64,000 nucleotides of DNA from Panorpa germanica (Eukaryota; Arthropoda; Insecta; Mecoptera; Panorpidae), in assembly GCA_963678705.1 (NCBI GenBank), contig OY783219.1, forward strand, positions 11,408,001 to 11,472,000. The letters are read 5' to 3'. Within the stretch, counting starts at the first letter, position 1; every line of letters starts with the position of its first letter. Positions 14,197-45,900 of the stretch are shown one piece after another. The translations under genes and the position numbers were made by a program. A model generated the notes under the pieces. The model saw only the letters and a program-made list of their open reading frames with translations, searched no databases and was not told the DNA's origin.

Positions 14197-16801
14197 GTTT
14201 TAGTAAATCAGATTTTATTTTTGTACAATAATCAAGTTGTAATGCGTGTTTTAAAATTTAAGAAGAACTCTGAATGATCTAGAGTATAAAAGTACAACAA
14301 TACATATGCAGAAACTAATTTAGAGACTTAATATTTTTCAAATTATGACTTATATTAAATATGTTTTTAATTTTTTGTGTAAATTTGTTTATATTAAATA
14401 TATATTTTCTTTGAGACATTAACATAATAAATATATTAGGGAAATCCTTTTATACAAAAAGACAAATATTAAAGTAATAATATCATGCATTAATCAAATT
14501 TAGGGTTATAAGTTTTGTTTTAAAAAAAATACTTTTTAAGTCAAATGTTTGTAATTATAGTAATCATGTGTATTTTAGTAAAATATTTTGACGAAATACT
14601 GTAGGAATATATGATTAAGAGAGAGTGGTGTATACATATTATACAAATAATATAATTTGCCTATTGAAAATTTGGGTTATTAAAATTTAATAAAATTTTA
14701 TCTAATGTGTAATCTAGAATTATAGTTTGTCTTGCAATTTAACTTATTTCAATCAGTAATTATGCATTTATTAAAATTTTTATTATACAATAAAAAGGTT
14801 GTATTGATACAAAGTGTTTTTAATTCCAGAAATCTTAATAGATTAAAACCTTAGAGTATATATCCTGTAGATTAAAAGTGTGTCCAAAATGTGTGCGAGA
14901 GAGAAAGGTATATGTTCCTATTTGTTCTCTATACGCATGCGTCGAAAGTGACAGCTGTCTACATATTATACGTGATAGTTTTACGTTTCTCTCTCGTACT
15001 CCTTCAGGTCAGCATTCTCTCCACATATATATAAGCTGATATAAGCTTTAAGATTAAAACTCAATTTAAATATTATAAATTTTTGTATTGTAAGTTTATA
15101 GAATTAAAGCATATTTTAGATCAGGAATTTGGTAAGTGTAGTAAAAATGAACATTGTAAGGGCAATGAAAGCTTTTATGTTTCATTAATTTTGTCTGCAG
15201 TAAATTAATTTTGTGAAAGGTGTAAATTTAGATCCTTGTGTAGTGATTGATGCCATTTTAATTGGTGTCTATCTGAAATATGTTCAGACAAACACAAAGT
15301 TTTTTATAAAATATGGAGCATTTCTTTTTTATTCTGGTTGAAGTTATATACATAGTACCAGTTATCCCTATATATGTGTTTCTATACCCTGGCCCACCCT
15401 GGATGCCATGGCACTAGATCCCTATTAGCCGCTCTCGCACTTAACCCACACTCACGCAGCGGGCTTCTCAAGTGTCCACCCTATTTCAAAGTTTAAATCG
15501 AATATTAGTGTATTATAAATAACCTTTTCGGGTAAATATTACTTTTCTTTTTATATTCCTGTATAAAAATAACAACTCATTTCGTTATACCAATAAACAG
15601 TTTAACATATTTTTGAAATTATGCAAATTGGCAGACTTTTTAAAACTATTACCACCAGATAGCATCTGAGCAAAAGTTGGTCAACTAAATTAGGCGGGAA
15701 ATTCAAGCTGAGTCCTATTACTTTATAAACGAATTAGAGTATGCACTAATTAAACAACCATAATTACAATTGTATATTCATAACATACTATTTATTGAAC
15801 AGAATAAATAATTAGGCACATTTCGTTTTTACCAGTCTGTTAGTTGATATAAACCTATCTCTATAAGTGATGTGACATTTAATTGTCAATTGTAAATTAA
15901 TTTATTTAATTGAAAAGGAATTAATAATTTATAATCAAATAGCAATTTATTATAAATTAGTACAGTTGCTTAAATATTAAAAAAGAAGAGTATTACTTAA
16001 GAGGCATGTAATTTTTTTGTGAATAGAAACATGAACGTGTAAATATTTTAAAAATATTGTTACTTAGGAACAGAAGCATTTTTAGATAAAAGAATATTAA
16101 GATAATTTTGATTTATACATTTAATTAAGATCATTATTAATGAGAGCATGCGATTTTATTATCTGTTTCTGACATGCGTGAAGAAATAATGCCGAGAGCA
16201 CCAAGCGGGTCCAAAGGGTGGCGCTGCTGCCGTATATAGCAGAGACATCTATAACAATAAGCGGAAGGAAACGAAGTATAAGTGCAGCCAAGCTGAGCTA
16301 TGGTCAAAGCCAAGCCCAGTATCTTAGATTATAATGGTGGCATCTTGTTGATTGACTCAATGCTGACAACATTTTTAAGAAAAATAACAATAAATTTTGA
16401 CTAAAATCAAATGTAACCTAATTTAAAGTGCAAGATATATAAAGGTAAATATATTTGTATAGATTTAATTAATAAGTTTAGTTTCAAATCATATTTTAAT
16501 AGTCTTCCATATTAGCTTTTCGTGTGCCAACGTGTTTTGTTTTAGATAACCGCTTTGAAATTTATTTTTTAGGAACTTTTTGCTGCTTGTTTGACATTTT
16601 GACATTCCTTAATAATAAAAACCCCTAAATTTATTTTGATTATTTTTGATAAGTTTTCATTACTGAAAACAACTACAAAACATATTTAGTATATTGTGGT
16701 TATGTGTCAATAATATTGTGTAATTTTGACTAGATTTCAAATTGATTTAATTTATAATATAACTGTGTAATTATAATGTATTTGTCAAGGTTTTATTCGC
16801 A
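14197..16801. other. Intergenic region between hnRNP U-like and zinc-finger genes
   Basis: The first few hundred bases are the AT-rich 3' UTR of the hnRNP U-like gene. Three less AT-rich patches stand out. One is 14885-15010 (GAGAGAGAAAGG and similar). Another is 15385-15485, containing CCTGGCCCACCCTGGATGCC. The third is 16170-16330, with GGGTGGCGCTGCTGCCG. The first two look like old mobile-element ends. The third may be promoter sequence of the downstream gene or another repeat. I see no gene. Confidence 0.5.
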
Positions 16802-19800
16802 ATGGATGCTAACTCTAATCAACACTGTTTCGTTTGCAATAGTCGTGTCGGTGTATCAAGCAGAAATGCTATTCAAATATTTTCGGACCAAGTAAGTTAT
16901 TATTATGATTGAGAACGAAATAACAATTATTTCATTATGTTAAGTGTTAGTGACGAATTATCTGGCACATGAAGACAATTATTAGAGACAAATTTTGTGT
17001 TTTAGGTGCAAACTTATACGGAGCGTCCTGTTCAGACTACTGTGTCTAATATTCTCGGATTGGACATAAAACCAAGTAATGTTCATTCAGTACTTATATG
17101 TAAAAAGTGTTTTAAATCAGTCAATGAAATCGATGAACTGGAATCTAGAGTTGCTGAACTTAGAGCTGAATTAATATCTAATTACAATCGAACCATTGTC
17201 AAATATAATGGTGAACCTATACATCTAGAACATGAAATTGAAATGTTAGATGAAAGCGATTGTGGTAAGTTTGCAACTTTTTTGTTACGAGTTTTGCTCA
17301 ACACAATGTTTAATATAATAATTATTTTATTACAGAAGATGTTGACAACGAGTTCATGAATGTAGGTTTTGATTCTAGTAATGAAGATTATCAAAATCAA
17401 AATGAACAAAATGAAAATGCTAATGATCCTGTTAATGTAGATGATTCAAAATTAGACGAGGGTGAACAGGTAATTATCATGTAAGCAAAATGGTATTTAC
17501 CGCGGTTTTTTCAGTGAAATTGAATTCTCATTAACATAAACGATTGTAATGATATATACGAAGTCTGTAATGGAATCTTTTCAACAATTGTAATTTATAT
17601 AATAAACAAGAAATATGCTACACCAATTAATTTTAAATTTAATTTAAAAATTACTCATGTTCTAAAACCAAAAAATTGTCACAGCTAAAGGAGGCACATT
17701 TCTGTCTTTATGTTCTTTGTTTCACATTCAATATACTTTATCATAAGATAATCTTTATGTGTACACCACTTTATTAAAGGTAATAAAAGGACATATTATA
17801 TATCGGGAATTTTTTCCTCAACAATCCGCTTTCCGATGATATGGTAAACAGAAAAGAGTCGTACTACATGAAGTTGCATCTAACCCAGAGAGTTAGAAAA
17901 TAAATGACTTCATATAAAACGTAGTGCCGGCGGTACCGTATTATATGAACATACGACCCACAGATTTTTGAGAGACAGTGGTATATTTATAAATATGAAA
18001 GAAAAAGCTTCCTCTTATGATAAAGTGTGTTTACGCGAAACAACTCAAATTATACTCTACTGAAAAAGAGAACCCTTCAGTTTCAAACGAGCGCTTAAAT
18101 ATATCGCGTATATTAATATTGATAACAATGCTATATATGTTTTGATTTGCGATTTATGGATAAATACTTTATTATTTGATGCACGCTATTTACATTCTTG
18201 TATAAATATTATAAAAATCAATTATTTTGCATTATAGGATACGTCTTTAGAATTTCAAATCGAGAGATTACATCAAGAAGATTGTGACAGTCAGTCGGAA
18301 ATTATAAAAGAGATTACAAATAAACAAATTAACAAAGTAGCAGGTATACAAAGGCAAGATTCTAAACCTGCTAATCGAAATAACAGACAAATTGTTTTGA
18401 AGAAACAGAATGAAGACGGACACATTACAACTTCCCATGAAAATGACGACGAACTAACTGTCGAGACAATTGAAATGGATAATGACATGGATCAACAGTT
18501 AGTAGAAATAGTTGCTGAGGGTACTGTAGAGTGTGATGATATTATAGAGGAGGACGAGGAGGAATATGAAGATGAAGAGCACATCGATTTAAACGTAAGT
18601 GGAGATCATCAATTAGATATCAACGCAGATGCGTTGTTAGAGGCAGCGACATTAGCTGAACAACCTGATGAAGGAAACGTGTTAGAAATAATTAATATTA
18701 AGATGGAACCTGAAGATGTGTACACAAAACCTACATTCAAGAAAAGAAGGCATCTTGCTAAAAAAATTAAACAAGAAGTGGAGTATACGGAGCCAATCGT
18801 AAATCGAGAATCATCAGGCTACACTTGTTTACTTTGCACTGTTGATACCAAGGAATCTGCTGAAGAAAATGAACAGTACGATGCTAAAAATATAGTTATA
18901 CATATGAAATCTGTACATGATCAAAGACTGTATATCTGTGATGTATGTGGGGCAGATTTTAGAAAGAGAAATGAAATGAGTGAACATTTAGATGAGCATG
19001 TCGCCACAGAAGAGGGTGACTTTCAATGTGAAGTCTGTAATAGAATCTTTTCAAATTTAAGATTGTTCAGAATTCATAGACGAATGCATTATCCTCAAAA
19101 CAAGATGTGGAATTGTGAAACCTGTGGAAAAAAATATAGGTATGTTTTCTCCTTGTTCAATGTTCATTTAACATATTCTTGAAAATAGTTTGAGAATGAC
19201 AGCTTTCGTCTCCTTCTGTCTATGTTAATATTGATAACTGACTCTTTCATGTTACTTTATCCTTCCAATTTTTTTAATTACTTAACTCCAGCAGAATTTC
19301 TACGCTGTGAAACCATCTTTCATTTGTTCTTTCCACGTGGTTTCCTGCCATTAATTGTTGCTAAATTTTTATTAGAATTCAATTTATAGACTAATAGAAT
19401 TCATTTTTCTATAGAAACCCCTCTGAATTAGGAAAAGGCCACGTACAAACTGTATTTTTTAATCTATATCATACTACTGTTGACCTATTTATTCTAACAA
19501 AATGAAATGTTTTTACACTATCAAACCACTTTCTGAAATATTGTGGTTAATTAATTGGAATTGCTAATTAATTAACTTATCTAGTCTTAGTTTGACTTAG
19601 TTTTTTAGTTCTAGTTGAAAAAACAATCCAAACTAAATATATATTATACTATATACTATATTACTAAATATATGATAGTTTTTTCTCAAGTATTTTTCTC
19701 GAATATTTATTCGTTAGTGGTGATCATTTTTATATAACACTTTTTAGAAACTACTGCGTCGTATCGTAATATTTTCTAAATTTCTTTCTTGTATCCCAAT

Positions 19801-22800
19801 TCTCTAACTGTTTTAACGATAAACGTTTTCCGTAAGTTAACGATATTTGTACCAGATTATCTGTACCAAGTTATCTGTATTATATTATATCGTTACCAGT
19901 ATAGTTTCGTTATAAATAAAGTTAGGGAATCCAACTTTCCGAGAAGAGTTAAAGGATAGCTTAATTTTCTTATATAAAGAACACTGAATACTAATGTTTC
20001 TTGTAATTTTATTCCAGTTCTCGTAATTTATTAGACGAACATATCAACACCCACACAGGAAATAGACCGTATCATTGCAAGCATTGTGCAAAAGATTTCG
20101 CTTCAAAATATACAATGTCTGCTCATTTAAAAACTCATACAGAACGTCCACGCCCGTTTGTGTGTAATCAATGTGGTAAAGCTTTCTTTAGCCAACAAAA
20201 TTTAACACAACATGTCAGAACACACTCCGGAGTGAAAAATTTTGTCTGCAAAACATGTGGTAAGAGTTTATTGTTAAATAATATAAGTTACTTTTGTATA
20301 AAATATTATGGTTATTAATTTGGTACGATTTTTTCAGGAAAGCGTTTTGGTACTACACATAATTTAGAGGTTCATAACATTGTCCATACGGGGAAAAAGC
20401 CATTTATTTGTCGAACTTGTGGAAAGGTATTATCAGTACACTTCTTTCTTTCTTTCGAAATATATATAATGTTATACAATAATTTTTATATTTATAAATT
20501 ATAGGCTTTTGCACGTAAAGCTGAAATTCGAGATCATGAACGTACTCATACTGGAGAACGTCCTTATGCATGCGATATTTGCAATGCCCAATTTTCACAG
20601 CGTTCAAATCTCCAGTCTCATAAACGAGCTACTCACTACGACGACAAGCGTCATAAATGCGATCTTTGTGACAAATGTTTTAAACGTCGACGACTTTTGG
20701 ATTATCATATAAAGGTACATTTAAAAATTTAATAATTCTATTGTGACTCTAAATGACTTGAAATTTCAAAACTAATAAAAAAGAAGACTTATTTTCAACT
20801 TATACGTTGGCTTATTTAGAATCGTCGTCCACATTTATTTGATAATTTCTAGAGTTTTAGTAACTGGATGAAATAATATGCAAGTGCGCATATCGTAGAC
20901 AAAATAACCTAAGGCCGATTTTTCAATAGCTAGTTATTGTGGTTGATACTTTTGTTCTAGTCAAATATAATTACTGCTTAGGTTAAACTTAACAATTCAA
21001 TAATTTTCAGATAATGTGCGCAATTTGTTTAATTATTCCATGGTCGTAAAACGTTACGTACGAAAGTAATTGTAAAATAATTGATATTTTCTCATTAATA
21101 ATTTTAATTTTTAAGGCTACACATACAGGAGAACGGCCATTTAAATGCACTACTTGTGATGCTACTTTTGTCTATCCAGAACACTTCAAGAAACACAAAC
21201 GAATTCATAGTGGAGAGAAACCATATCTTTGTGAGGTAATTATATTTTGAAAATAATTGAATACATTTTTAAACTTATACAAACATTTTTTAACATACGA
21301 TAAGAATTTTACAAAAAGGAAAACAAAAATTTAAAAGGATTTATTTAAATATATATTTAGGTTTGCGGAAAAGCGTTCAACAGCCGGGACAACAGAAATG
21401 CTCATAGATTTGTCCATAGTGATAAGAAACCATACGAGTGTTTAGTTTGCGGACAAGGCTTCATGCGAAAACCACTACTCTATGCTCATATGCAGTCTCA
21501 GGTATATATTAATAATGCAATTTTGATTAAAACAGGGCCGAATTTACCTTTTTCTAGGTTTGGCACAACGACAAAAGAATCAATTGTATCTACCTACAAT
21601 TTATTCGCCAAAATCAATTGTATCTAGTCATAATTTCCTTCAAATGCACGTCTGTCGACCTGTGTCACTCTTAATCTGGCCGGAGATTGAGAACTATATT
21701 TTTGAAGACCTGAATATAATTAAAAATACATGTTTTTTATTTTCAGGGTCATCTTAATGACACTATTGTGGTAAATCAGCCAAGGTTGCAAACAGGTGAG
21801 AGTCACGTGATCAATATGGAAACCATTAATGAAGAAAGTGAATTAGCAGCGCAATCAATTCAAGAAATAGGTCACAAATTGTATCTCAATGACTTAAGAG
21901 ATCATGTTTTAATACAGGGTATGAATCACATTCTTCAGTAATTAAGAAATATTATTTCGTAAAATAATTTATTCTTTTTGAAGTAGATGCTAATGGAGAC
22001 ATTTACGCTGAGGAAGCAACCGATAAGGATATTCAAGATATTCAACAAGCTTCTGATGACGATATGGCCGAAGAACATTTAATAATTGATGGTCAAGTTC
22101 ATTTTAATGAAGAAACTAATGAAAATGAGCAATTGTCAATTAATGAAGTTGAGTTGGAAGATGGAGAAATGTTTCAAGAGGAGGTTAGTAATAAAATAAT
22201 TATTAGGATTTGTAATTAGTCTATTGCAATCAATATAATTATTCTTTAAGTGTATGTTTTTATTTATTTTTCTTTTTAAATGTGTTAAGTGTAAACTATG
22301 GATGAATGGATACATTTCTTTAAAATAAACTAATTCTGAGCTATGTGGTTTGAGTGTTTACTTCTTTTAATTATGAATAATGGTTAAGAAGATATGATAC
22401 TCTCAAAACTTCTTTTATCCTAAGGCTATCTCTCGCTCTGGAATCGACTAACGACTCCGGCGAAAAGTCGAAGTGCACAAGTAGAAAGTTCCAGTGTGAG
22501 AGATCCTTAGAATACAAACTGAGCAGACCTGAATAGGCCATACCAGGGAGTGACAAACGCATGGTTGAAATCAATCACGATTAGGCTTGATTCCTTGTGG
22601 GAACTAGAGGTTATTTAAGATAGGTTTGAAGACAATTATGATTAGATATAATTGGTTTTGCGTTGTACCTAATATTGAAAAGTATAACGCAATGTACATT
22701 GCTGAGTTCATCGCAAAATTTAGTAAATCTGACAAATTAAAGAAAAATAAGAGTAAATCGTTTTGTCGAGCTTGTAGCAAGTGGTGATCCGATTCGCTGT

Positions 22801-23629: not shown

Positions 23630-23815
23630 GATGAAAATATGCAAATTGATTACTTGTGATTATTGTATTAATAGTTTTGACGGAATTTTTTTTTAAGAAA
23701 CATATAATGTAATTATTCCGTTATTTCTGTCGAATTGTATGGAAAATGAATGTCACTTGCCGTCTGTTTATTATTCTATTAGTAATCTTAATTGAACTAA
23801 GTTGTACATTTTTTT

Positions 23816-24239
23816 AGCATATAAGCAATACGTATATATGTATATTATAAATAGTGTAATTTATAAATTAGTATAATTATGTGGAGTATCTTTAATATGT
23901 GTTGATTTACCTACAAAATAAAAGACCTATGATAGATACATAGAGAGACTACTGTATAATTATTATGTTTAAGTTATTAACTATTTTATAAACCAAATTT
24001 CATGATTTAAATTTACATAAATAAATAAACATAATATTTTACTTATATAACCAAATATTTATATTTAAGTTTTATTAAATTAAAAAAAAAGTATTTATCA
24101 ATTTAAAATTTATTTTTTTAACCTTACCTTTGCTAAAATTCAACATTTTTCTAGAGATTAATTAAATTAATCCTGCTTCCATTTCTAATATTGTAAAATT
24201 ATCATATTTTCAACGTACGATGTAAATTTATATAATTAT
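23816..24239. repeat. Duplicated 3' flank of the zinc-finger gene, copy 1
   Basis: About 424 bp from AGCATATAAGCAATACG to TTTATATAATTA recurs almost unchanged at 25198-25640. The segment contains the presumed poly(A) signal of the zinc-finger gene. Copy 1 lacks 18 bp present in copy 2 (the region around CGTCTAAGAAAATTTT), at a short direct repeat. Near-identity implies a recent event. Confidence 0.9.
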
Positions 24240-24242
24240 ACG

Positions 24243-24397
24243 AGTAACTATGGTTGCGGAAGATCAGGCGTTGTAATTGAGCTGAGCTGAGTGCCATCTA
24301 TGAAACAAGTGATTAACTGTGTCTGTTGCATCTACAATTTAATAGATGGCGCTCAGCTCAGAATTACAACGCCTGATCTTCCGCAACCATAGTTACT
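24243..24397. mobile_element. 155 bp foldback MITE
   Basis: The arms (24243-24300 and 24343-24397) are near-perfect reverse complements. They read AGTAACTATGGTTGCGGAAG at the ends and run inward to a GCTCAGCTCAG/CTGAGCTGAGC core next to GCCATCTA. The loop is about 42 bp. No coding capacity. It starts four bases after the junction where the duplicated 3' flank ends. Confidence 0.85.
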
Positions 24398-24689
24398 TTT
24401 CTATTCAAATAACTTTTAGTACTTTTAGAAAATTAATAAAGTCTGTCAACTATAATTAATACATATCTTATATGATAAATAATTCACTAAACTGTCGATA
24501 AAGTACAATATCTGTTGTGACAAACATTCAAGAATCTCTGTCCTATCTTTCATTTGTCTCATCTTCTTCCATCTCTAGCCATACAGAAAATTTCATTTTG
24601 TTAATATTAGGAATATAGAATAATTTATTTTAAAAATAAAAATATTAAAAAAATTAAAAATTCAACCCTCTAATCAATCAATTTTAACA

Positions 24690-25035
24690 ATAGTATAACC
24701 TTCTTACATCTCGAGGAATGAAGAAAATTAATATAAGAGATGTAAGAATTCTTACATCTCGAGGAATGAAGAAAATCTTATTGTTGATAAAGTTAAAAAT
24801 CAACTTTTTTATCAATTTGACAAGACAACCTTCTTACATCTCGAGGAATTAAAAAAATCTCATTGTTGATAAAGTTAAAAATTCAACTTTTTTATCATTT
24901 TTAACAAGAGTATAACCTTCTTACATCTCGAGAATTGAAGAAAATTTTATTGTTGATAAAGTTAAAAATTCAATTTTTTTTATCAATTTTAACAAGAGTA
25001 TAACCTTCTTACATCTCGAGGAATGAAGAAAATTT
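24690..25035. repeat. ~87 bp minisatellite, 4-5 units
   Basis: The motif CTTCTTACATCTCGAGGAAT recurs at about 24700, 24750 (partial spacing), 24830, 24917 and 25004. Each is followed by a block containing TTGTTGATAAAGTTAAAAA, TTTTTATCAATTTT and AACAAGAGTATAAC. The regular spacing after the first two units is about 87 bp. Units differ by a few bases. Confidence 0.85.
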
Positions 25036-25197
25036 GAGCGCTACTAGAACGAAAACGAACGAGTTTCTGTACGGATACAAGAACTGCAAAAATCTCTTCT
25101 CTATGACCTTATAGTATGGTATTATTTAGTATACTTTTAGCAGATTGGGTATCTCATTATATTACGAAGGATGTGAAAAGGAAAAATAATCTCGAAA

Positions 25198-25640
25198 TAG
25201 CATATAAGCAATACGTATATATGTATATTATAAATAGTGTAATTTATAAATTAGTATAATTATGTGGAGTATCTTTAATATGTGTTGATTTATCTACAAA
25301 ATAAAAGACCTATGATAGATACATAGAGAGACTTTACTGTATAATTATTATGTTTAAGTTATTAACTATTTTATAAACCAAATTTCATGATTTAAATTTA
25401 CATAAATAAATAAACATAATATTTTACTTATATAACCAAATATTTATATTTAAGTTTTATTAAATTAAAAAAAAAGTATTTATCAATTTAAAATTTATTT
25501 TTTTAACCTTACGTCTAAGAAAATTTTACCTTTGCTAAAATTCAACATTTTTCAAGAGATTAATTAAATTAATCCTGCTTCCATTTCTAATATTGTAAAA
25601 TTATCATATTTTTAACGTACGATGTAAATTTATATAATTA
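25198..25640. repeat. Duplicated 3' flank of the zinc-finger gene, copy 2
   Basis: Direct copy of 23816-24239, offset by about 1382 bp, with an extra 18 bp. It stops at the same ATAATTA point, where the large palindromic element begins. Confidence 0.9.
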
Positions 25641-26149
25641 CTAGCTATTTGACCCGTTGCAAGGCAACGAGTGTAAGTTATGTGTTTGTTTCCTTTTTAA
25701 ACAATTAGTATTTTAAATGTGTGTAATGTTTTAATTGAGCTATATCCGCTCCACTTTAAATTAATAAACTGTTTTATTAAATTTACAATATCTACGGTTT
25801 TCTGGCTTTTTTGCAATATTTTCTCAATTCATGGACTTTTTTTCTTTAAAAAATAATTACAATTTATTCAATTTCTTTGATGCAGTTAAGTTCGCTTGGC
25901 TTCAAAATAAAGAACTGCTTCATTACAAAACTTGTAAATAAATTAACAATATATTGAAAAAATAACATATATACAATATGAGATTTCTGGATAATATTGC
26001 GCCTGACAGAGTGGCAACACTACTTACGAGCAAAATTTTCTCTAGAAGAAAGTAATGAATTTCGTAATTATTTTGTGACAATATTTACATACTGAATGTA
26101 ACAACTAATTGGGGATGTTGTGATGTAGTTACTTTACTTAGGCTTTAAA

Positions 26150-27480
26150 ATTAAGAACTGCTTCATTACATTTTAAAAAACTAAGCGCATCTGGCTTTTA
26201 TGCGACCTTTTTTAAACTCATGGACTTTTCTTTCTTAATTTTTTTTCTGGATTTATTGAAATGTTGTGATGCAGTTATGTTCATTAGGCTTTAAAATAAA
26301 GAACTGCTTCATTATATTTTAAGAAACTAAGCGCATCTGGATTTTATGCGACCTTTTGTAAATTCATGGACTTTTTTTTCTTAATTTTTTTTCTGGATTT
26401 ATTGAAATGTTTTGATGCAGTTATGTTCGTTAGGCTTTAAAATAAAGAACTGCTTCATTACATTTAAAAAAACTAAGCGCATCTGGCGTTTATGCTACCT
26501 TTTTTAAATTCATGGACTTTTTTTTGTAATTTTTTTTTCTGGATTTATTGAAATATTTTGATGCAGTTACGTTCCTTAGGCTTTAAAATAAAGAACTACT
26601 TTATTACATTTTAAAAAACTAAGCGCATCTGGCGTTTATGCTACCTTTTTTAAATTCATGGACTTTTTTTTGTAATTTTTTTTTCTGGATTTATTGAAAT
26701 ATTTTGATGCAGTTACGTTCCTTAGGCTTTAAAATAAAGAACTACTTTATTACATTTTAAAAAACTAAGCGCATCTGGCGTTTATGCGACCTTTTTTAAA
26801 TTCATGGACTTTTTTTCTTAATTTTTTTTTTTGGATTTATTGAAATGTTGTGATGGAGTTATGTTCATTAGGCTTTAAAATAAAGAACTGCTTCATTATA
26901 TTTTAAGAAACTAAGCGCATCTGGATTTTATGCGACCTTTTGTAAATTCATGGACTTTTTTTTCTTAATTTTTTTTCTGGATTTATTGAAATATTTTGAT
27001 GCAGTTACGTTCCTTAGGCTTTAAAATAAAGAACTACTTTATTACATTTTTAAAAACTAAGCGCATCTGGCGTTTATGCGACCTTTTTTAAATTCATGGA
27101 CTTTTTTTTCTTAATTTTTTTTTTTTGATTTATTGAAATATTTTGATGCAGTTGTGTTCATTAGGATTTAAAATAAAGAACTACTTTATTACATTTTAAA
27201 AAAGTAAGCGCATCTGGCGTTTATGCGACCTTTTTTAAATTCATGGACTTTTTTTTCTTAATTTTTTTTTTTGGATTTATTGAAATATTTTGATGCAGTT
27301 ATGTTCGTTAGGCTTTAAAATAAAGAACTGCTTCATTACATTTTAAAAAACTAGGCGTGTCTGGCTTTTATGCGTCCTTTTTTAAATTCATGGACTTTTT
27401 TTTGTAATTTTTTTTTCCGGATTTATTGAAATATTTTGATGCAGTTACGTTCCTTAGGCTTTAAAATAAAGAACTACTTC
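26150..27480 (+). repeat. Left-arm tandem array, ~146 bp unit, about 10 copies
   Basis: The landmark AAGAACTGCTTCATTA (or ACTACTTTATTA) occurs at about 26153, 26301, 26449, 26591, 26737, 26884, 27029, 27177, 27323 and 27469, a spacing of 142-148 bp. Adjacent units share variants: ACTACTTTATT and TTCCTTAGG tend to go together. This suggests array growth by unequal exchange. Confidence 0.9.
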
Positions 27481-27899
27481 ATTACATTTTAAATATCTAC
27501 GATTTTCTGGCTTTTGAGTAATTTTAATAAAGTCAAACTTCCAATTTTAAAACGGCGATTATTCGAAAACTGTATGAGATAATTGAAAATGGATTTTAAT
27601 TTTGAAATCAGCATTAAAAACTACGTTCGAAAACATATATTATGTGCCAAAATAAAAATTATATTTTTTTGAAAAAGTAAGAAGACTATAATAGCCTTCT
27701 TACTTTTTCAAAAAAAAAAAAAATTTATTTCGGCACATGATATATGTTTTCTAGCGTAGTTTTTAATGCTGATTTCAAAAATAAAATCCATTTTCAATTA
27801 TCTCTTACTGTTTTCGAATAATCGCCGTTTTAAAATTTGATTTTTGACTTTGTTAATGTTTACTCAAAAGCCAGAAAATCGTAGATATTTAAAATGTAA

Positions 27900-29390
27900 T
27901 GAAGCAGTTCTTTATTTTAAAGCCTAAGGAATGTAACTTCATCAAAATATTTCACTAAATCCAAAAAAAAAAAATTAGAAAAAAAAGTCCATGAATTTTA
28001 AAAAGGTCGCATAAAATCCAGACATGCCTAGTTTTTTAAAATGTAATGAAGTAGTTCCTTATTTTAAAGCCTAAGGAACGTAACTGCATTAAAACATTTC
28101 AATAAATCCAAAAAAAAAAAATTAAGAAAAAAAAGTCCATGAATTTTAAAAAGGTCGCATAAAATCCAGACACGCCTAGTTTTTTAAAATGTAATGAAGT
28201 AGTTCCTTATTTTAAAGCCTAAGGAACGTAACTGCATCAAAATATTTCAATAAATCCAGAAAAAAAAATTACAAAAAAAAGTCCATGAATTTAAAAAAGG
28301 TCGCATAAAATCCAGCCACGCTTAGTTCTTTAAAATGTAATGAAGCAGTTCTTTATTTTAAAGTCTAACGAACATAACTGCATCAAAATATTTCAATAAA
28401 TCCAAAAAAAGATTAAGAAAAAAAAAGTCCATGAATTTAAAAAAGGTCGCATAAACGCCAGATGCGCTTAGTTTTTTAAAATGTTATGAAGCCGTTCTTT
28501 ATTTTAAAGCCTAACGAACATAACTGCATCAAAATATTTCCATAAATCAAGAAAAAAAATTACAAAAAAAAGTCCATGAATTTAAAAAAGGTCGCATAAA
28601 AGCCAGACACGCCTAGTTTTTTAAAATGTTATGAAGCAATTCTTTATTTTAAAGCCTAACGAACATAACTGCATCAAAATATTTCAATAAATCAAAAAAG
28701 AAAAATTAAGAAAATAAAGTCCATGAATTTAAAAAAGGTCGCATTAACGCCAGATGCGCTTAGTTTTTTAAAATGTAATGAAGCAGTTCTTTATTTTAAA
28801 GCCTAACGAACATAACTGCATCAAAATATTTCCATAAATCAAGAAAAAAAATTACAAAAAAAAGTCCATGAATTTAAAAAAGGTCGCATAAAAGCCAGAC
28901 ACGCCTAGTTTTTTAAAATGTAATGAAGCAATTCTTTATTTTAAAGCCTAACGAACATAACTGCATCAAAATATTTCAATAAATCAAAAAAAAAAAATTA
29001 AGAAAATAAAGTCCATGAATTTAAAAAAGGTCGCATAAACGCCAGATGCGCTTAGTTTTTTAAAATGTAATGAAGCAGTTCTTTATTTTAAAGCCTAACG
29101 AACATAACTGCATCAAAATATTTCAATAAATCCAGAAAAAAAAATTAAGAAAAAAAAGTCCATGAATTTAAAAAAGGTCGCATAAAATCCAGACACGCCT
29201 AGTTTTTTAAAATGTAATGAAGCAGTTCTTTATTTTAAAGCCTAAGGAACGTAACTGCATCAAAATATTTCAATAAATCCAGAAAAAAAAATTACAAAAA
29301 AAAGTCCATGAATTTAAAAAAGGTCGCATAAAAGCCAGCCACGCTTAGTTCTTTAAAATGTAATGAAGCAGTTCTTTATTTTAAAGCCTA
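27900..29390 (-). repeat. Right-arm tandem array, ~146 bp unit, about 11 copies
   Basis: Reverse complements of the left-arm units recur at about 27905, 28051, 28200, 28349, 28494, 28641, 28785, 28929, 29076, 29224 and 29372. Two further diverged units lie beyond the unique block, at about 29594 and 29740. A longer higher-order pattern is visible at about 28490-28920, where units alternate between ACACGCCTAG and GATGCGCTTAG forms. Confidence 0.88.
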
Positions 29391-29885
29391 AGTAACGTAA
29401 CTGCATCACAACGTCCCTAATTAGTTGTTACATTCATTATGTAAATATTGTCATTCATTACTTTCTTGTAGAGAAAGTTTTGCTCGTAATTAGTGTTGCC
29501 ATTCTGTCAGGCGCAATATTATCCAGAAATCTCATATTGTATAAATGCTATTTTCAATATAGTGTACATTTATTTGCAAGTTTTGTAATGAAGCAGTTTT
29601 TTTATTTTAAAGCCTAACGAACGTAACTGAATCAAAACATTTCAATAAATCCAAAAAAAAAAGTTAAGAATAAAAAGTCCATGAATTTAAAAAAGGTCGC
29701 ATAAAATCCAGAAACGAATAGATATTTAAAATGTTTTGAAGCAGTTCCTTATTTTAGGCCATAAGGAATATAAGTGTATCCTAAATTTCAAAGAAATGTT
29801 AGTTTTCTTTTATGAAAGAATGTGTATTAATATTTTAAAACAACTAATAAGACAAAAAAATTATTTATGCCCGTTGGTGATGTAT

Positions 29886-31252
29886 ACATATTTCATTATA
29901 TTTAAATATGAATATCCAAACAGTGTTATTTAGGTTGCATACCCTCTTGGAGCAAAGTAGTCTAGGTGCCGTTGAAGAAATAATAACCCATATATATTTT
30001 AAGCTACTATTTAATGGATAAATGATTTTAAATAATTTAATTAAATTAATAATTTAAAATTATAAGAAATAACAAAGAGGTAAATATTAAATAATATACT
30101 TTTATTGAAGAAAGTTTTTTACAATATACATTGCACTAATAACAAAAATTAAGATTTAAAATTATTAGCTATTTTACATAAATTTCTAGATTACTCTAAT
30201 ATATAACTTAAACTATATATTTTGCTTATAGATACATTTCTTAAAGTCAGTAATGTTTAAACTCTCATCTATTGTAATAATTATATAAAAAATTAGAAAC
30301 TACATTATGTCATATTGTTCTGCCAATTTATGCTTTCCCTTATCCTTAGATTTATCTTCCAAATACTTTAAACCAGCTGAAAATAATCTCGAAATACTTA
30401 TTCTTTTCTGTGACGTATTACGCATATGTAAAACATGCGGCAAAACTGAAATTAAAATTTGATATAACTATAACTTCGTCAAGTTTTGGATATTTAAAAA
30501 AAAATAAAAACATCTATACAATTTATTTCAGTCGAAAATTAAAAAAACGAGTTCATAAACCCATTGTAAACGTTTCTGTTTTCATGCAACGACTATTTTT
30601 GATTATTATAAAAAAAAAATAATACAGTTATTATATACTGTTCACTATTTTTGTGTAATATTGTATTACACTTTGTAATATGGTAATATTACATTGCAAT
30701 TTCGTTACCAGATGTCTCCTCAAATTTATTGAATATTTAAAAAAAACCTGCGCTGTCAACCAACCAACTTCATGGAACATAACGGCTGAAACGCCATTAC
30801 AAAATTTTAAGTGATTTGAAGTATATTCGATCGTTTTTTAGTTTTTAGTAAATTAATATTGAATAAACTCTTCAAATAATTTCAAAAAGATATGTATATA
30901 TTTACAATATAAGTCAGCAGTCGTACCTCCAAATTTGATAACATTTATAGTATCATGTTTTACCAAATTTTTTGCTCTTAGTGTAGAGGAATATTTTCAA
31001 CAATAACTGTTTTAAAGCAAACGGTTTGGTTAAAGATTATTTATATTTGATCTTATTGGTAGGTATTTTTTTTATTTACATAACCTATTTTCATTTGTTT
31101 CCAATTATTTACTTAAGAGTACATTAATAATTGTTGTTTTGTAAAGAATGTTATAATTATTTCTTATTACACATGGTTATACACGGTATGACAACAAAAT
31201 ATACTAGCAGTATAAGCAGTAATTAAAAGAGATTTCGTTTACAGATAGTATA
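29886..31252. other. Intergenic region upstream of POC1
   Basis: AT-rich sequence with no recognisable gene or repeat ends. Small open frames at 29736-29933 (inside the foldback end) and 30410-30622 look like chance. TTTACAG at 31238-31244, nine bases before the POC1 ATG, could be the acceptor of a non-coding first exon. Confidence 0.5.
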
Positions 31253-33764
31253 ATGGATAACAACGACCCTACATTAGAACGCCATTTCCGTGGTCATAAA
31301 GATGCTTTAACAGGACTAAGCTTTCATCCCCTAACAAAGCAATTGGCGTCTAGTTCTAATGATTCATCTCTTATGGTCTGGAATTTTAAGCAATCTGTTA
31401 GATGCTATAAATTCTTGGGACATACAGACGCTGTTACAAGTGTAGCATTTTCAACGAATGGCGATTTGGTTGCTTCCTCATCAAAAGACAGGTATGTTTC
31501 ATTAAAAAATAAAGCTAGTAACTACCAGATATAACACAACATTTGTTTTCGCAGAACTGTTCGATTGTGGGTTCCAACTGTGAGAGGCGAATCTGGAGAA
31601 TTTAGAGCTCATACTGGAACTGTTCGCTCCGTTAATTTTTCACCAGATGGATATAAAGTATATAAATTAAAATACATTTGATATCATTATTACAACATAA
31701 AGATTACAACCATTACATTCTAGATTGTAACAGCAAGTGATGACAAATCTGTTAAAATATGGGTTGTCTCACGAAGAAAGTTTGTTTCATCATTTACTGG
31801 GCATACTAATTGGGTACGATGCGCAAAATTTGCTCCAGAAGATAAAATAGTTGCAACATGTTCTGATGATAAATCTACTAAACTTTTCGATGAGAATAGT
31901 GGCCACTGTATACATACTTACTCTGAAGTAAAAGGTACGTTTTGTTTGTAAATAGGAATAAGGAAATGAGTTAGTTAACACATTCATTATTAAAACATAT
32001 ATAAATTGTAGGCCTTCCAAGTCACCTTGATTGGCATCCTAGTGGAACTTGCATTGGCATTGCTATGACTCATGGTACCGTCAAAGTTTACGACACACGC
32101 ATGCATAGATTGCTGCAACATTACAGAGCTCATGCCGAAGCTGTAAAACAAATATCATTTCATCCTAGTGGAAATTTCATGCTAACGGCCAGTCATGATG
32201 GAGCCGTTAAGGTATAACTCTCACAAAAGATGAATGTTATCTTACATTCAAGTAATATTTTACTTAAGCAAAACCTAGTAATATTTAATCTTGAAAAAAG
32301 TACTTCTTAAGATTTTATATTCCTAAAAAGTTTTATGAGTTATATTCATAGAGATATAAGAATAGAGTACGCGAAGTGTACGGCCGTGTGTAAGAGGAAG
32401 CGATAGATGCAAAACGAGAGATAGCCTACCGAGAGTCCTATCTGTTTCTTCGTAGCCGAACCGCTGCTGCTGGCTTAGTTGATTGGCGGTATGGTAGAGA
32501 GTAAACAAGCAAGCAGTCGCTATTGTTAAAATAAAAATATTTGTAAATAGTTAGTGTAGCACACAGTAAATTTTAAATAATATATACAAAGCATTTTAAC
32601 GTCCAGACAATGAATAAAGACACCGACAGCCCCCAACTATTATAGCTATATTTTCGTTAGCGCGGCAGTGAATCACAGTACTTGGCTCGAAAGAGACACA
32701 AAGGACATTTGTGGCTACCTCTCTCTTTGCCTATATTACAGTATTCAGCCTCTTGCGAACTCTAGTCTTCTATCTCTATGGTTATATTTCTTACAATCCA
32801 GTATACAATTAGATATATATTAATGGAACCACTGGTTATTTAAAGGTACTTGACTTGTTGGAGGGAAGGCCGATATATACACTGAAGGGTCATGAAGGCT
32901 CTGTGACTACAGTCGTTTTCTCTGCTGATGGCGAATATTTTGCTACTGGTGGAGTGGATCAACAGGTTTTTATAATATACATTATCATAAAAACTAATAT
33001 ACCGTAGGTAGTAATTTATTTTTTTCTCATAAAGGTGATGGTTTGGAAAACTAACTTTGATCGAGAGAGTCCACCAAAAGCAGCTAATTGTTCTGTAGCA
33101 GCATCAGTTCCTAAAGAATATTTAACACTAAGTAAGAGAGATTCCAGAGAACGTTCAGCTTCACCATCTGTGTACCAGTTGGATGCCAGAAAATCTCAAG
33201 AATTTAATAAACTTCAGGAATTTCAGGTCTGTGATGGTGGTGACTCTGATAAAAATTAAATTATAAATCCACTAATTAAGGGATAACATTATAGTGTTAA
33301 GTTTTGAATACTTTTCTATTTTTTTAATTATATAATGATGCTTCATGTTTAACATAAAATTAATTAGTGATAAATTAGTTTTTATAATAATATTTATTTT
33401 AAAATATATAAAGGTTACGACAGTGGGATCGGAACATTTGCATAAATCCAAAGATGTATACTCAAAAAGCACGTTGAATACATTAGGTACTATCTTATCA
33501 AATCAAGTATGTTTTTATAACACTGAAAATATTAAAACAAAATCAAAACAAAGTTTACTTCCTAGAATTCGATCGAAATCTCATACAAATTTAGATGTTA
33601 TGTGCAAACGAGATTCTGGTGATACCTGTACTAATGCACAGATATTAACAGCTGTAAAAAACCTCTCAGTTCATATTGAAACAATGAAAACTTCTATAAA
33701 TAAATTAGATCATAGGGTTTCTGTAATTGAAGACACCCTACATAACATAACATCTAGATTGTAA
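31253..33764 (+). CDS. Poc1: POC1 centriolar WD40 protein
   Basis: Seven exons: 31253-31491, 31555-31657, 31724-31934, 32012-32211, 32846-32965, 33035-33226, 33414-33764; sum 1416 nt, 471 residues. Residues 1 to about 300 form seven WD40 repeats. The first begins [16 protein letters not shown], and repeats carry GH and WD-like ends (LMVWNF, VRLWVP, VKIWVV). A variable linker follows. The last ~40 residues form the conserved C-terminal POC1 coiled coil ([20 protein letters not shown], then [12 protein letters not shown]). POC1 stabilises the centriole and basal-body wall and is needed for cilium and centriole length control. The introns after exons 5 and 6 use GTTTTT and GTCTGT donors. If the intron after exon 6 were retained, an early stop after DGGDSDKN would give a form without the coiled coil. 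Confidence 0.93.
32212..32845. other. 634 bp POC1 intron 4 with a less AT-rich patch
   Basis: The stretch at about 32360-32510 and 32640-32770 is less AT-rich than the surrounding sequence (GTACGGCCGTGTGTAAGAGG, GCGCGGCAGTG). It is probably part of an inserted element, but I see no termini or coding similarity. Confidence 0.4.
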
Positions 33765-39900: not shown

Positions 39901-42900
39901 TACATAAAAAATTCAAACAATGTATTTTTAACTGAAAGTTAATCTATGAAAAACAACTTTTGAAATTGAATAGTTTTCTATTTGTTTTACTGGTTTATGT
40001 ACCCTTAATGGTTATATTGATTTCCCAAAAAATGCAAAAAGCTGTAGCAGAAGAAATAAAATTAATGTTTCTTGTTTACTTTTTCTGTCCAATTCTTCAA
40101 TAGGCAGTTAAACTACGTTATGACATTAGCTTCATTTTTTTTTGTTTTGTTAAAGAGCATTTTCCTTGGTTAAGCTACAGTTATGTTTGACTTGAACCAA
40201 AATCAGTACTGAGAAACAGAAATATCAACGATGGAGTTTATAATAAACCATATAGTTAACTGACTATTGAAATATCGACCATCAGTTCAGTAATTATATG
40301 TATTTATAAGTATGTTGTATAATAACAAAATATATACAAATCCCAATAAAACCAAAATGTAAATATAATTAAATAAATAAGTTTGCATAATAATAAGTTT
40401 TGAGCATATGTAATTTTCTTTACATAAATAAAAAGGAAACTTTATGTATAACAAGTTCAATTATTTAATAAAAAACAAAAAGAATTAGCATTGTGACATA
40501 TTACCGTTCTTAACCTATAATCATACTAAACCATTTGACAAAGCAACAGATGTATTAATAAGCTGTGCGCATTTTTCCAACACCTGCACTGAAGAGTGAC
40601 AACCAATTATATTAACTACAAAGCATTGATTTAAAGCAAAAAAATCGCGTTTTAATAATTTTCTTTAACACGGACATTAGCCCACCGTCTAATCAAAATT
40701 TAAATCATATTTATAAATTATAATTTCTAGTTAATGTTTGTCGTTTTAAAATATCCGTGAATCAAAAGCACTAAGGCATCACACAATTAAATTAAAAAAT
40801 AAGCAACTAAAATATACTAAATCGATATATTAAGCATAACTTTATTTATTTTGGCAACAATATAAAAAAGTTTAGCGTTGTAACTACACAGTAAACATTT
40901 TGGAGTCACTTTGCCATCATATTGAAGATGCGTATGATTTTTTTTGTCATGTTCATTTACAGTTCAGTTTCATATTTAGTTCATATGAAATGTATATTTT
41001 ATGGATTACAAATGGCGAAACCACTCCATCTGTCGCAATACAAATGAAGATAAAGTTGATGCGAACTATAATTGAAGTGCAATAGTGATAGAAACGTCAC
41101 AAAAAGGGACACTTCATCAAATTGTTTACTGGTTACCTTTTAAATTCTATAAAAGGTATATATATATATATATTCATAAAGTTGATTATCAGAACATCTA
41201 ATGCGCTTCTATTTCTTAATTAGTCACAATATTGATGATATTCCCGCTAAACACAGTTGTCTACATATAAGATTTTTTTAACATAACAAAGTTTACGTTC
41301 TGCAAAAATTTTTTTTTAGGTTAATATAGTGTCAGATTATATAACAAAAGTTATTTTCGACATAAATTTATGTTTCCCGACGCTTTTTATGCCAAATTAT
41401 ATAATGTTATATATAGAGATTTTTAATTTATGTAATGTCAATGTACCAAAACTATATTAAACTTCGGTAAATAATAACATGTAACGTTAGGTAAAAAATG
41501 TTATGTTATATAATACTTGTATTTATGTCTTGTGTTTAACAGGTTAGTAGTTACAATAATGGAATAATTAAAGGAAGATCAACCCGGGAACACTGAAGTG
41601 ACAATATTCTACAAAAATATATAATAATAATATTCTATACACAAGCTCTTCCGTCTATTGCTATTCCCGTTCCGTTCAGTAACCGATTTTTTTTACTAGA
41701 ATCATAAAATAATCCTCTTTCGGAATAATGTAATACAAGATATTCTTTTCTTGAATTACTATAATCTTAAGAAAACCTTTTAAAGGATTATAAAATATCC
41801 TTAGAAAAAAAAATGATTTTTTGGAAAATTTAGCTCTTTTTAGATATTAAATAATATTACAAGAATATTACTTGTACAAGTAAAAAGTTACATGTATTTA
41901 AGGTAATATTCATGTTTTGTGTTTAGCGGATATATAAGGTACAATCAGGTTCGGATTAACCAATAGACAAATAAGAGTAATGTGTAAGACCCGGATTCAA
42001 TAGGAAAATTACGACTAAATATAATTAATTTCATGTTAACGTTAAAATTTTTAGATACAATTGGGGATTCTAAATAGAATTTAAAAACAAAACCAGACGG
42101 ATATTACAATAGAGATTCAATAAAATTAGTTCAGTAATAATTTATTTGTGGCAAAAAATCATGGCGATTACTGAAATCGGATTTCTAGTTAAAATTATCT
42201 TTATAGAGATTAATTATCTACCGCAAGATGTTTTATCGTTAATGGTTTCCGAAATAACAGGAAATAATTTAAACTTTATATCAAATAGTGACATATTAAT
42301 TTAAAACATTTAGCAATAGTTAATAAAATTGGTTTTGAAAATCACTAATTAGTGGTGTTAAAAGAAAACATTTGGTGTTTAAACAGTATAACATTAATCA
42401 TGCAATCCTGTCACCAGAAACATAAGAAATAATGCACACAAATAATAATACCTCTGCTGCAGAATCTGGAAATTTGTAACTCACAGTATGGTTGTCCAAT
42501 TCATCAAGCCTTATACCAGATGGCGCAACTGTAACCATTTCAGACTCGTTTTTAGGTATTTCAATGTTGGCAGTAGATGGTTCAGGATGTTGCTCCCTAA
42601 ATTGTTCAGCAGCAACAGTATACGGTAACTCAGCAGGAAACACTTGATCCCAATATTGATCCCTGATCAATTCGGGGTGATCATGATGCATTTCATCAAC
42701 AATCATATAAGCTACTTGCAAATTACGATCAACAATCCAATTCACTTCAAAATCATCATCATCTTCTCCAAACGGATTAATTAACGATTCCGCCACTTTT
42801 AACCATCCCATATAGAAGAAGAATTGAAGGGTTGTGAATAAAGGGAAGTATTGATCGATTTGGTTGATAACTCCAGCTACTTTTGAATCGTCTACGTATT

Positions 42901-45900
42901 GTCTACCCATAACTGAGGTTATAAAATATGAATACACAGCTAAGGTGACCACTTGAGTGTATACTAAAGGCACGCTTATGGTATCATAACTTATTAATAA
43001 ACCACATTGACCTCTGAACTTATTCAGTTCATCAATGACTGTCTTCACAGCGAAATCATCACGAATTCGTCCCTCCTTTCTTGCTCTTGTGACAATACTT
43101 GCTGCCCAAACTATTGGCAGCCAGTGTTTTGAATGTCTTGGGAATTTATTATTGAGATCTTGCATTATGACACGTTCATTTTCTAAGAGAAGACCGGCTT
43201 CTACTAGATGTTCTAATGTTGGAAAACGTTTCTTAACTCTAGGTGAGATCATCGTCAGAACCATTGTTAAACAAAGACACACGTATCGCATTATTGTACG
43301 ACGCATTAATCTACCTCGTTCATCCTGAAATTAGAGAAATTATTATTGTTCCACAAAATTAAAGGAGTGTGCCTGGCATATACTCTGTCGGCTAATCTTT
43401 ATAGGTTGCGTTCCACAAAGCGTTCACAACATCCAAAATATTATTTCAACAATTAATGACGTCATCATTAATTTCGATCACGCCAAGCTCACAACGATCC
43501 ACCTGAAGAGTTGGGTCGTAGTGGTCGTTGTTGATCATTTCGACGCAATGTTTAAACATAACACAAAACTTAAAGATGACGATGACAGATGTTAAATAAG
43601 CTTAATAAAATTAATTTTAATTCATATTTAACAGCCATTTATACATTTTTTCTCATACCATAACCTAACTTAATAAATAAACAATGTTCATTATCATTTA
43701 GAATATATTTCTTTTATGAAAAATTAATTTTGTTTGTAGATATAGCTTTTATTACAGAGCTATTTAATCAACTATCGCAATCCTTATTTTTTCAACGCTC
43801 AAAACCACTCAAAACGTTCCATAATCCATTCCACTTGAGTGTATGCTTGCAACGCTCGCAAGCAAGTGGAACGGTAAAACTGTGGTCGTGAGCGTGATTG
43901 TTGTGAACGCTTAGTGGAACGCACCCATAGTGTCAATACACATACTCCATAGTAGAACGAAAGCATGCTAATATCGAGCAAATGCCATCTACGAGCATGT
44001 GTTAGAAATACTCATTCTTCTTTAAGTATGCCACTGAATTACAAGGCAATTTAAGGGGAGTACTCTTTAGCATGCTTGAACGTGTTTTCGTATTAGCATG
44101 TTAATACTGAATACTGCACCAATCATATTATCCTATCATCATCTCACATTTCTATTAATAAACGAGTTCCTTTCTTTCTCGCGTCACAACAAGTTTTTTG
44201 TTGAGTTTATTTCGCAGAAAACTGTCCTTTATAAAACGTTGATCTATTGGTATAGTATACAGTGGTGTATTGATAAACATTAAAATAGAAACCTCCTATC
44301 ATGATAAAGTGTGTTAAAGCGAAACTACTCTAATACACTCTACTGAAAAAGTCTTATCAGTCTCATGTCGGACGTGTTGAAGTTATTGATAAAGTTAAAA
44401 AACAATTAGTGTTCTCTCTCTTTATAATTTCAATAAAGATGTTCTTAATTATTATTCTAGTCATTTTTACAGTATTATCAATTCTAAATTTATTATGCTT
44501 ATGCATCAATAGGACGTATTATATTCCAGTGTGAGATCACCGTTAAACATTTCAGCTTTGAGATAAATGAACTATTTATTCATTTAGATCTGTATTTTTA
44601 ATATTTTAGATTATATTTAATAATAAGTTATATATAGGATAAGTTATAAATTATATGTGCTATATATAATATAATAATATAAGAATTCAAGGTAAAAACT
44701 GCACCTTCTAACCATGGTCTTGTTTTCAATTGAATTATTTAACAATTTGTTTGCAGAAATTGTCATATGAGACAAGCAAATAAAAGCAAATTTGTTATCT
44801 ACGTAACATGACACATGAAAGATTTATTGCTTTATACAGAAATAAAATTCTTGACACTCCTATCTTGTACCGGATTACATAACAATTACACTTATATAAT
44901 TAATATCTGTTATAGAATATATATAAGATGCATATATTCATTGTTATTAATGGGCTTGTTAACTTATCTTTTGGGGGTTGTTTTTTAAAATTTCTGATGG
45001 AAATATAGGTCAATATACGTATGCTAGCGTTTTTATTTGTTAAAATTTTACAAAGTTAACGAAAATATAGCTATTTAAACTTTTAATTTCAATTTTGCCG
45101 CTTTTGTTACTTCTGCGTATGACGTCACAGATGTAATAAGCAATCGAGATTTTTTTTTTTCGGCAATCATAATATAAAACTTGATGGGATATAAGACTCC
45201 AGGTGTTAGTAATCACACACACACACACTCGTATGCTTCTCTGTTGAATAAAAGACAAGTGATAAATCACCGGACGTGACGTTTCATGCAGTGGCGAGTT
45301 ATTGCAAAAAATAATTGGACATTTGAGGTCCTGAAAGCAAACTTTATAAATATAAGGTACAGTTTTATAGAAATTAAATCATGGTTCACAAGCCCACAAT
45401 ATCAGCTCCGTTACTAAAACAGGTATGTATGTAAATAACAGAGACTTCAAAAGAAAATAATCTTATTCGTTTCTGTTTATGTCAAAAAAAGATTTATTGT
45501 TTTTATTCTTTATTAGAAAAACTGTTTTTAACAAGATTCATACGTTTAGGAACTTCCAACTCAATAAATTGTGATCTATAATCCATAAACTTCTTCCAAT
45601 TTAATATAAATCGAAATGTTTTTTATTTTAAGGGTTCCCAAAAATATCTATTATTAGGGTGTCCCCACACGGGTCGACTGATTGCAAACCGATCTGCCCG
45701 AACCAAATGAGAATGGAACTGTGTTGTTAGTAAGAGAACGCACGTGTATACGAGTGAGAGAAAACACACGGCACGAACGAAACTAAACTGGTTTTGAGCG
45801 ACTATGTTTTTCGGTCGCAGTGCATGCTTGGTTGCATGCTTTTGATGGTGACATGATGAGCAGAGATGTGCACAAATACTATTCAAAAGTATTTAAATAC

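Follow-up and report, generated by a model that had tools for sequence, protein, structure and literature searches.

The present analysis identifies, in the stretch of 64,000 nucleotides of Panorpa germanica DNA that was analyzed (the window), what is very probably a minus-strand copy of a Helitron, inserted between A and T, with a palindromic core and with a 5′ end that was later lost. The element is a canonical, apparently non-autonomous Helitron that has the palindrome as its core, and both termini, the flanking A and T, dispersal over the genome, fixed arms, variable arrays and a protein-coding cargo are directly observed among its copies. Mirror-image repeats inside a Helitron are unusual, and a limited literature search, mostly of titles and abstracts and taking in few subscription journals, found no published Helitron with a foldback or palindromic satellite core. 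The features of the window copy and its insertion site, in window coordinates, are as follows.

23815-24238, plus strand: paralogous unoccupied site, ATAATTA^TACGAG, in which A^T marks the point of insertion
25198-25640, plus strand: host flank at the Helitron 3′ end, a direct copy of 23815-24238 (95% over 443 columns)
25641-30381, minus strand: Helitron copy of 4741 bp, 3′ end intact, 5′ part missing beyond 30381; homology to other copies starts exactly at 25641
25641-25644, minus strand: 3′ terminal CTAG, then host T (AATAGCTAG followed by T); CTAG followed by T in 15 of 16 loci, with unrelated flanks
25652-25672, minus strand: 3′ subterminal hairpin, 9-bp stem, 11 nt from the end, by folding
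25735-25917: outermost diverged unit of the left arm, 72% identical to the consensus
25918-26121: X block of the left arm, inverse match to 29410-29594 (93%, gaps uncounted)
26122-27437: left array, nine full 146-bp units
27438-27689: inner partial unit plus Y block of the left arm, inverse match to 27691-27943 (92%)
27690: palindrome centre, where A27690 is the 1-nt spacer in the window
27691-27943: inner partial unit plus Y block of the right arm, from block alignment of the arms
27944-29407: right array, ten full units, including a duplicated 292-bp dimer (R4-R5/R6-R7, 99%)
29410-29594: X block of the right arm, inverse counterpart of the left X
29595-29780: outermost unit of the right arm, of which 29634-29780 is 89% identical to the consensus
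29781-30381, minus strand: 5′ part kept in the window copy, ~98–99% identical to other copies
30303-30381, minus strand: remnant of the carried gene, 79 bases, the end of its last exon; the remainder of the kept 5′ part lies 3′ of the stop codon

The palindrome of opposing ~146-bp arrays, which the original prediction had described from the letters alone, proved real in the self-comparison called for at the time: an inverted match at 26115-29268 runs over 3165 columns at 91% identity, and TRF placed the opposing arrays, with a period of 146/147, at 26121-27493 and 27866-29408. The centre was rightly said to be nearly spacerless, but the 11-base spacer assigned to it did not survive, those 11 nt being themselves nearly palindromic and the true spacer 1 nt; counting outward from A27690 there is a single mismatch in the first 26 positions, at the fifth. 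Divergence between the arms, also claimed earlier, was found in all blocks compared, with 153 aligned sites differing between arms. Between arms, the inner partial unit with the Y block was 92% identical, the X block 93% and the arrays, in mirror register, 91–93%, so that X, Y and array blocks differ by ~7–9%, and the outermost units were 79% identical, i.e. 21% different, between left and right arm. Of the outer edges first proposed, 25642 was off by one base (25641), and 29885 was wrong, since homology to other copies runs to 30381. No open reading frame of 110 aa or longer was present in the palindrome or the window copy, and no RNA family was detected at the gathering threshold. Besides the full units (nine left and ten right), the unit set of both arms includes diverged or partial units. 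In pairwise comparisons that took in 11 units of the left arm and 13 of the right, duplications were apparent within arms (L2/L6, 99%; R4/R6 and R5/R7, 99%), and cross-arm pairs at equal mirror positions were overall no more alike than the rest. The arrays have therefore undergone turnover since the two arms separated.

The host genome (464 Mb in 249 contigs) was searched with a 601-bp array-Y piece, which gave at least 407 matches, and among the matches listed at least 28 loci, the window's included, had abutting plus and minus matches and so represent the same palindrome. Twenty-one loci were examined, namely the window and 20 that were fetched, the latter being 19 of the other 27 loci with abutting matches together with L019, whose plus partner is not adjacent. 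Other copies with the same outer ends had been anticipated; copies were indeed found and the left end is shared by most loci that have a 3′ end, but the proposed right end is not. The 3′ terminus was present in 16 of the 21 loci, as AGCTAG or TGCTAG followed by T in 15 of them and with small changes in L017. A matching 3′ end was absent from palindrome loci L025-L028, and L014 runs off its fetched stretch. Over the 15 located 3′ ends (105 pairs), mean identity was 95% over the 60 nt inside and 36% over the 60 nt outside, and the adjoining base was T in 15 of 15. The 5′ terminus TCCTATATTATAATG, with host A before it, was present in six of the 16 copies with a 3′ end (L012, L013, L016, L017, L018 and L024), the start in L013 reading TCCTCCTATATT and being counted from its first TCC; five copies with both ends measure ~5.6–6.4 kb. 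Within the stretches read, TCCTATATTATAATG was not found in the other ten close copies, the window's among them, and their break points are various. Ten copies extend further 5′ than position 30381 of the window copy. Loss or rearrangement of the 5′ part is common in close copies and is explained only in part. The 5′ motif was also matched without a nearby 3′ end in L025 and on the plus strand of the window at 16322. A different 5′ end at 29880 (A^TCACC) was plausible from the window alone and was ruled out, as other copies continue past it. Taken together, the copies have a 3′ CTRR, a 5′ TC, a hairpin 10–12 nt from the 3′ end and A/T insertion without a TSD, which are among the criteria for canonical Helitrons.

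Across the 21 loci the palindrome join was recognisably the same in every one, in altered form in L018, L019, L023 and L025, and the centre spacer was 0 nt in 16 loci, 1 nt in four and 3 nt in one. Left and right X blocks were 90.6–93.5% identical in 14 of 14 loci in which the two X blocks and a Helitron 3′ end are all present, and same-arm X blocks were 95.2–100% identical to those of the window in the 13 other loci, gaps being uncounted in both comparisons. X blocks are thus closer by arm across copies than between arms, and the inverted duplication therefore came before these copies spread; the left and right arms are each a fixed variant that new copies inherit. Array length ranged over 16 copies from 4 to 16 units in the 3′ arm and from 6 to 21 units in the 5′ arm, and the 146-bp arrays thus changed in length at a later stage than the inverted duplication. 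Two loci without the Helitron 3′ end, L028 (1582-7899) and L026, had outer X blocks that hardly differ between arms (99.5% and 97.6% identity) and are perhaps products of later exchange between arms. In L019 (4060-5139) the palindrome centre is tandemly multiplied, with alternating Y blocks at a period of ~304–307 bp.

More distant relatives were sought among ~15 3′ ends in the 83–86% similarity band, of which five were fetched (L035-L039). Two of the five (L037 and L039) also have the 5′ terminus TCCTATATTATAATG, and units lie in both orientations in four (L036-L039) and not in L035 within its 3 kb. In sampled unit pairs, identity of arm to arm was 90% in L038 and 86% in L039, compared with 82–84% and 79–82%, respectively, to window units; the corresponding values were 82% and 78–81% in L036 (two units from each arm) and 78% and 78–82% in L037. 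The closer arms of L038 and L039 could reflect repeated palindrome formation and not one event. Pattern scans of viral contigs and prokaryote contigs with motifs of the element gave 0 matches.

An alternative explanation could be a foldback DNA transposon of the FB, Galileo or Tetris sort, with a cut-and-paste transposase that would bind repeats in long TIRs. The internal plan is the same, with outer, tandem-repeat and inner domains inverted, and an FB/Galileo-like layout without matching termini had been noted at the outset; matching termini are indeed lacking, but kinship with FB/Galileo did not hold, the true ends being Helitron-like, canonical and asymmetric by multi-copy alignment. A systematic TIR+TSD search returned 15 candidates, the best with a score of 16 against best scores of 13–15 in ten shuffles, but this sole candidate above the shuffles lies inside repeat units, and the runner-up, at 14, falls in the range of the shuffles. 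FB-type ends were accordingly rejected, and a foldback transposon is highly improbable. It is also decidedly unlikely that the host maintains the structure as a locus for endogenous hairpin RNA (siRNA), as first suggested, with a transcript that would fold to a long duplex and be diced. Arms that are ~91% complementary over ~2 kb with a 1-nt spacer, and the end of a carried gene just upstream in the Helitron sense, would suit such a locus, but the differences between arms had no G-U bias on either strand (32 vs 40, p = 0.41, with L7 and R8-R9 excluded) and the structure is a dispersed repeat as opposed to a single conserved locus.

Adjacent insertions can give palindromes, and the present one could in principle have originated from two separate Helitrons or satellite blocks inserted head-to-head by chance. 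This would not account for a recognisably identical join with a spacer of 0–3 nt at all 21 loci (the alteration in L019 consisting of tandem Y copies), nor for the same left and right X variants in 14 of 14 loci, and the probability of such an origin is minute. Long-read data are known to contain artefactual perfect inversions, and a mirror artefact of assembly or sequencing would give a palindrome of that kind, but here the arms differ at the 153 aligned sites, and many loci whose flanks are unrelated have this structure; we give this explanation next to no credence, in agreement with the original prediction, which had dismissed it.

The defining motifs of canonical Helitrons given in one report are a 5′ TC, a 3′ CTAG and a 3′ hairpin ~11 nt from the end (PMC5148889), and insertion between A and T is given in that of another (PMC5714489). 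Canonical Helitrons (Helitron1) share the 5′ TC, 3′ CTAG, hairpin and A/T insertion with the present element, which differs from them in that its core is a several-kilobase spacerless palindrome of satellite-like arrays. HINE, DINE-1 and Cg_HINE, which the accessible portions of the literature describe as non-autonomous Helentrons with a central satellite-like tandem array (PMC4067079, PMC7492417), resemble it in having such an array inside a rolling-circle element. HINE-type elements are there given one central array and subterminal inverted repeats of 11–15 bp, with T-rich or TT targets for HINE/DINE-1 (PMC4067079, PMC7492417), whereas the present element has two opposing arrays, A^T insertion and a CTAG end; the T-rich target of Helentrons and HINE was not found, the target at the ends located here being A^T. 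Closest in internal plan is Tetris of Drosophila, with TIRs of up to 1735 bp, ~220-bp repeats, an outer domain, tandem repeats and an inner domain in two inverted arms, and 8–10 bp TSDs, according to the part of its description available (PMC4079207), but the present element is without TIRs and 8–10 bp TSDs at its ends. Galileo and FB are likewise described, in partial texts, as having long, internally repetitive inverted arms (PMC3573991, PMC3688188), but neither symmetric TIRs nor the P-superfamily transposase of Galileo was seen in the present element.

The window copy showed no transposase. Helitron_like_N (PF14214) had 150 scored places among 893 candidates in the genome, the listed ones all above the cut-off, and more than 20 of the listed matches sit in open frames of 1119 residues. 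By motif matches, three of eight loci (L042, L043 and L044) have an inverted repeat and GCTAG followed by T after the Rep domain on the same strand, and L047 has only the right half of this pattern after its Rep domain; GCTAG followed by T also occurs by chance in Rep loci. Rep domains are plentiful in the genome, but no autonomous element sharing these termini was found there. As it shows no transposase of its own, the window copy was probably mobilised in trans by RepHel enzyme encoded at another genomic location. The palindrome itself would have formed once, before amplification, when a strand used a short hairpin to fold back and serve as its own template, leaving a centre in which CTA runs directly into TAG. 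Such a fold-back origin is the most likely, the one observation that points to it being the spacerless centre. New copies would then inherit both distinct arms, with arrays gaining or losing units by slippage or unequal exchange, and the window copy would have lost its 5′ end after insertion on the minus strand between A and T.

The palindromic repeats would appear to have no host function. It is conceivable, if unlikely, that the palindrome is a working part of the element, such that a kilobase-long duplex in the single-stranded intermediate of rolling-circle transposition protects or steers the copy, or that it acts as dsRNA against Helitrons or the carried gene; the copies would in that case make up a “foldback Helitron” lineage that the palindrome holds together, and would amount to a mobile hairpin cassette. 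Long spacerless palindromes are held to be unstable, but here one such palindrome has seemingly been carried to dozens of loci, with same-arm X blocks 95–100% identical among the close copies compared, and inverted arrays occur as well in four of the five examined relatives with 14–16% diverged 3′ ends. The copies offer a natural series in which to study how palindromes arise and how they are copied in rolling-circle transposition, and the same series bears on whether such elements feed siRNA pathways. Two themes that are usually separate, satellite arrays inside Helitrons and foldback transposons, are brought together.

Gene capture is a known Helitron trait, and one protein-coding stretch is shared by all six copies with two ends, which have these exons in their 5′ half, and by four more copies; this stretch is the 3′ portion of a gene and runs to the stop codon. 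It lies at 1762-2514 in L018 and is an open frame in many copies, and a protein match marks its remnant in the window at 30303-30395 on the minus strand. A 251-residue piece had 21 matches in the genome and no match in Pfam. One database relative was found, the unnamed protein P0121 with 36% identity, for which Pfam gave one weak match below the cut-off; this kinship and the broken, intron-like frames suggest that the carried gene looks cellular in origin, and its motifs may be those of CCDC174. Changes among copies comprised 12 synonymous, 23 non-synonymous and one stop over 11 rows, against a neutral expectation of 24/71/5%, so that in these rows there was no clear constraint and no clear departure from neutrality. 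Two ORFs in the 5′ half of L018 had no match in a Pfam scan.

At the insertion site, AATAATCTCGAAATA occurs in the window at 25185 and 30382 only. These positions would fit a tandem duplication of 23815-25197 followed by Helitron insertion into the second copy, after which a deletion may have removed the 5′ end of the Helitron along with the greater part of what was left of the duplicate. A dispersed repeat (30380-30511 and, inverted, 45029-45156; 76%) starts right where the Helitron copy breaks off on its 5′ side. The window has a G+C content of 29%, and the palindrome lies between a C2H2 zinc-finger gene (17006-22219, plus strand), with a weak zf-AD match below the Pfam cut-off, and a WD40-repeat gene (31223-33764, plus strand), which from its ORFs we take to be POC1-like. 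Further along, at 42401-43330 on the minus strand, is a bestrophin exon with a Pfam match, and its named database matches are mostly insect bestrophins. A small inverted-repeat (MITE-like) element with ends AGTAACTATGG...CCATAGTTACT occupies ~24243-24397, and a short array of an 87-bp satellite (TTCTTACATCTCGAGG...) lies at 24749-25033. The palindrome centre resembles part of the unit of this satellite, and the palindrome copies in L019, L022, L023 and L027 are positioned beside or inside tandem arrays resembling it.
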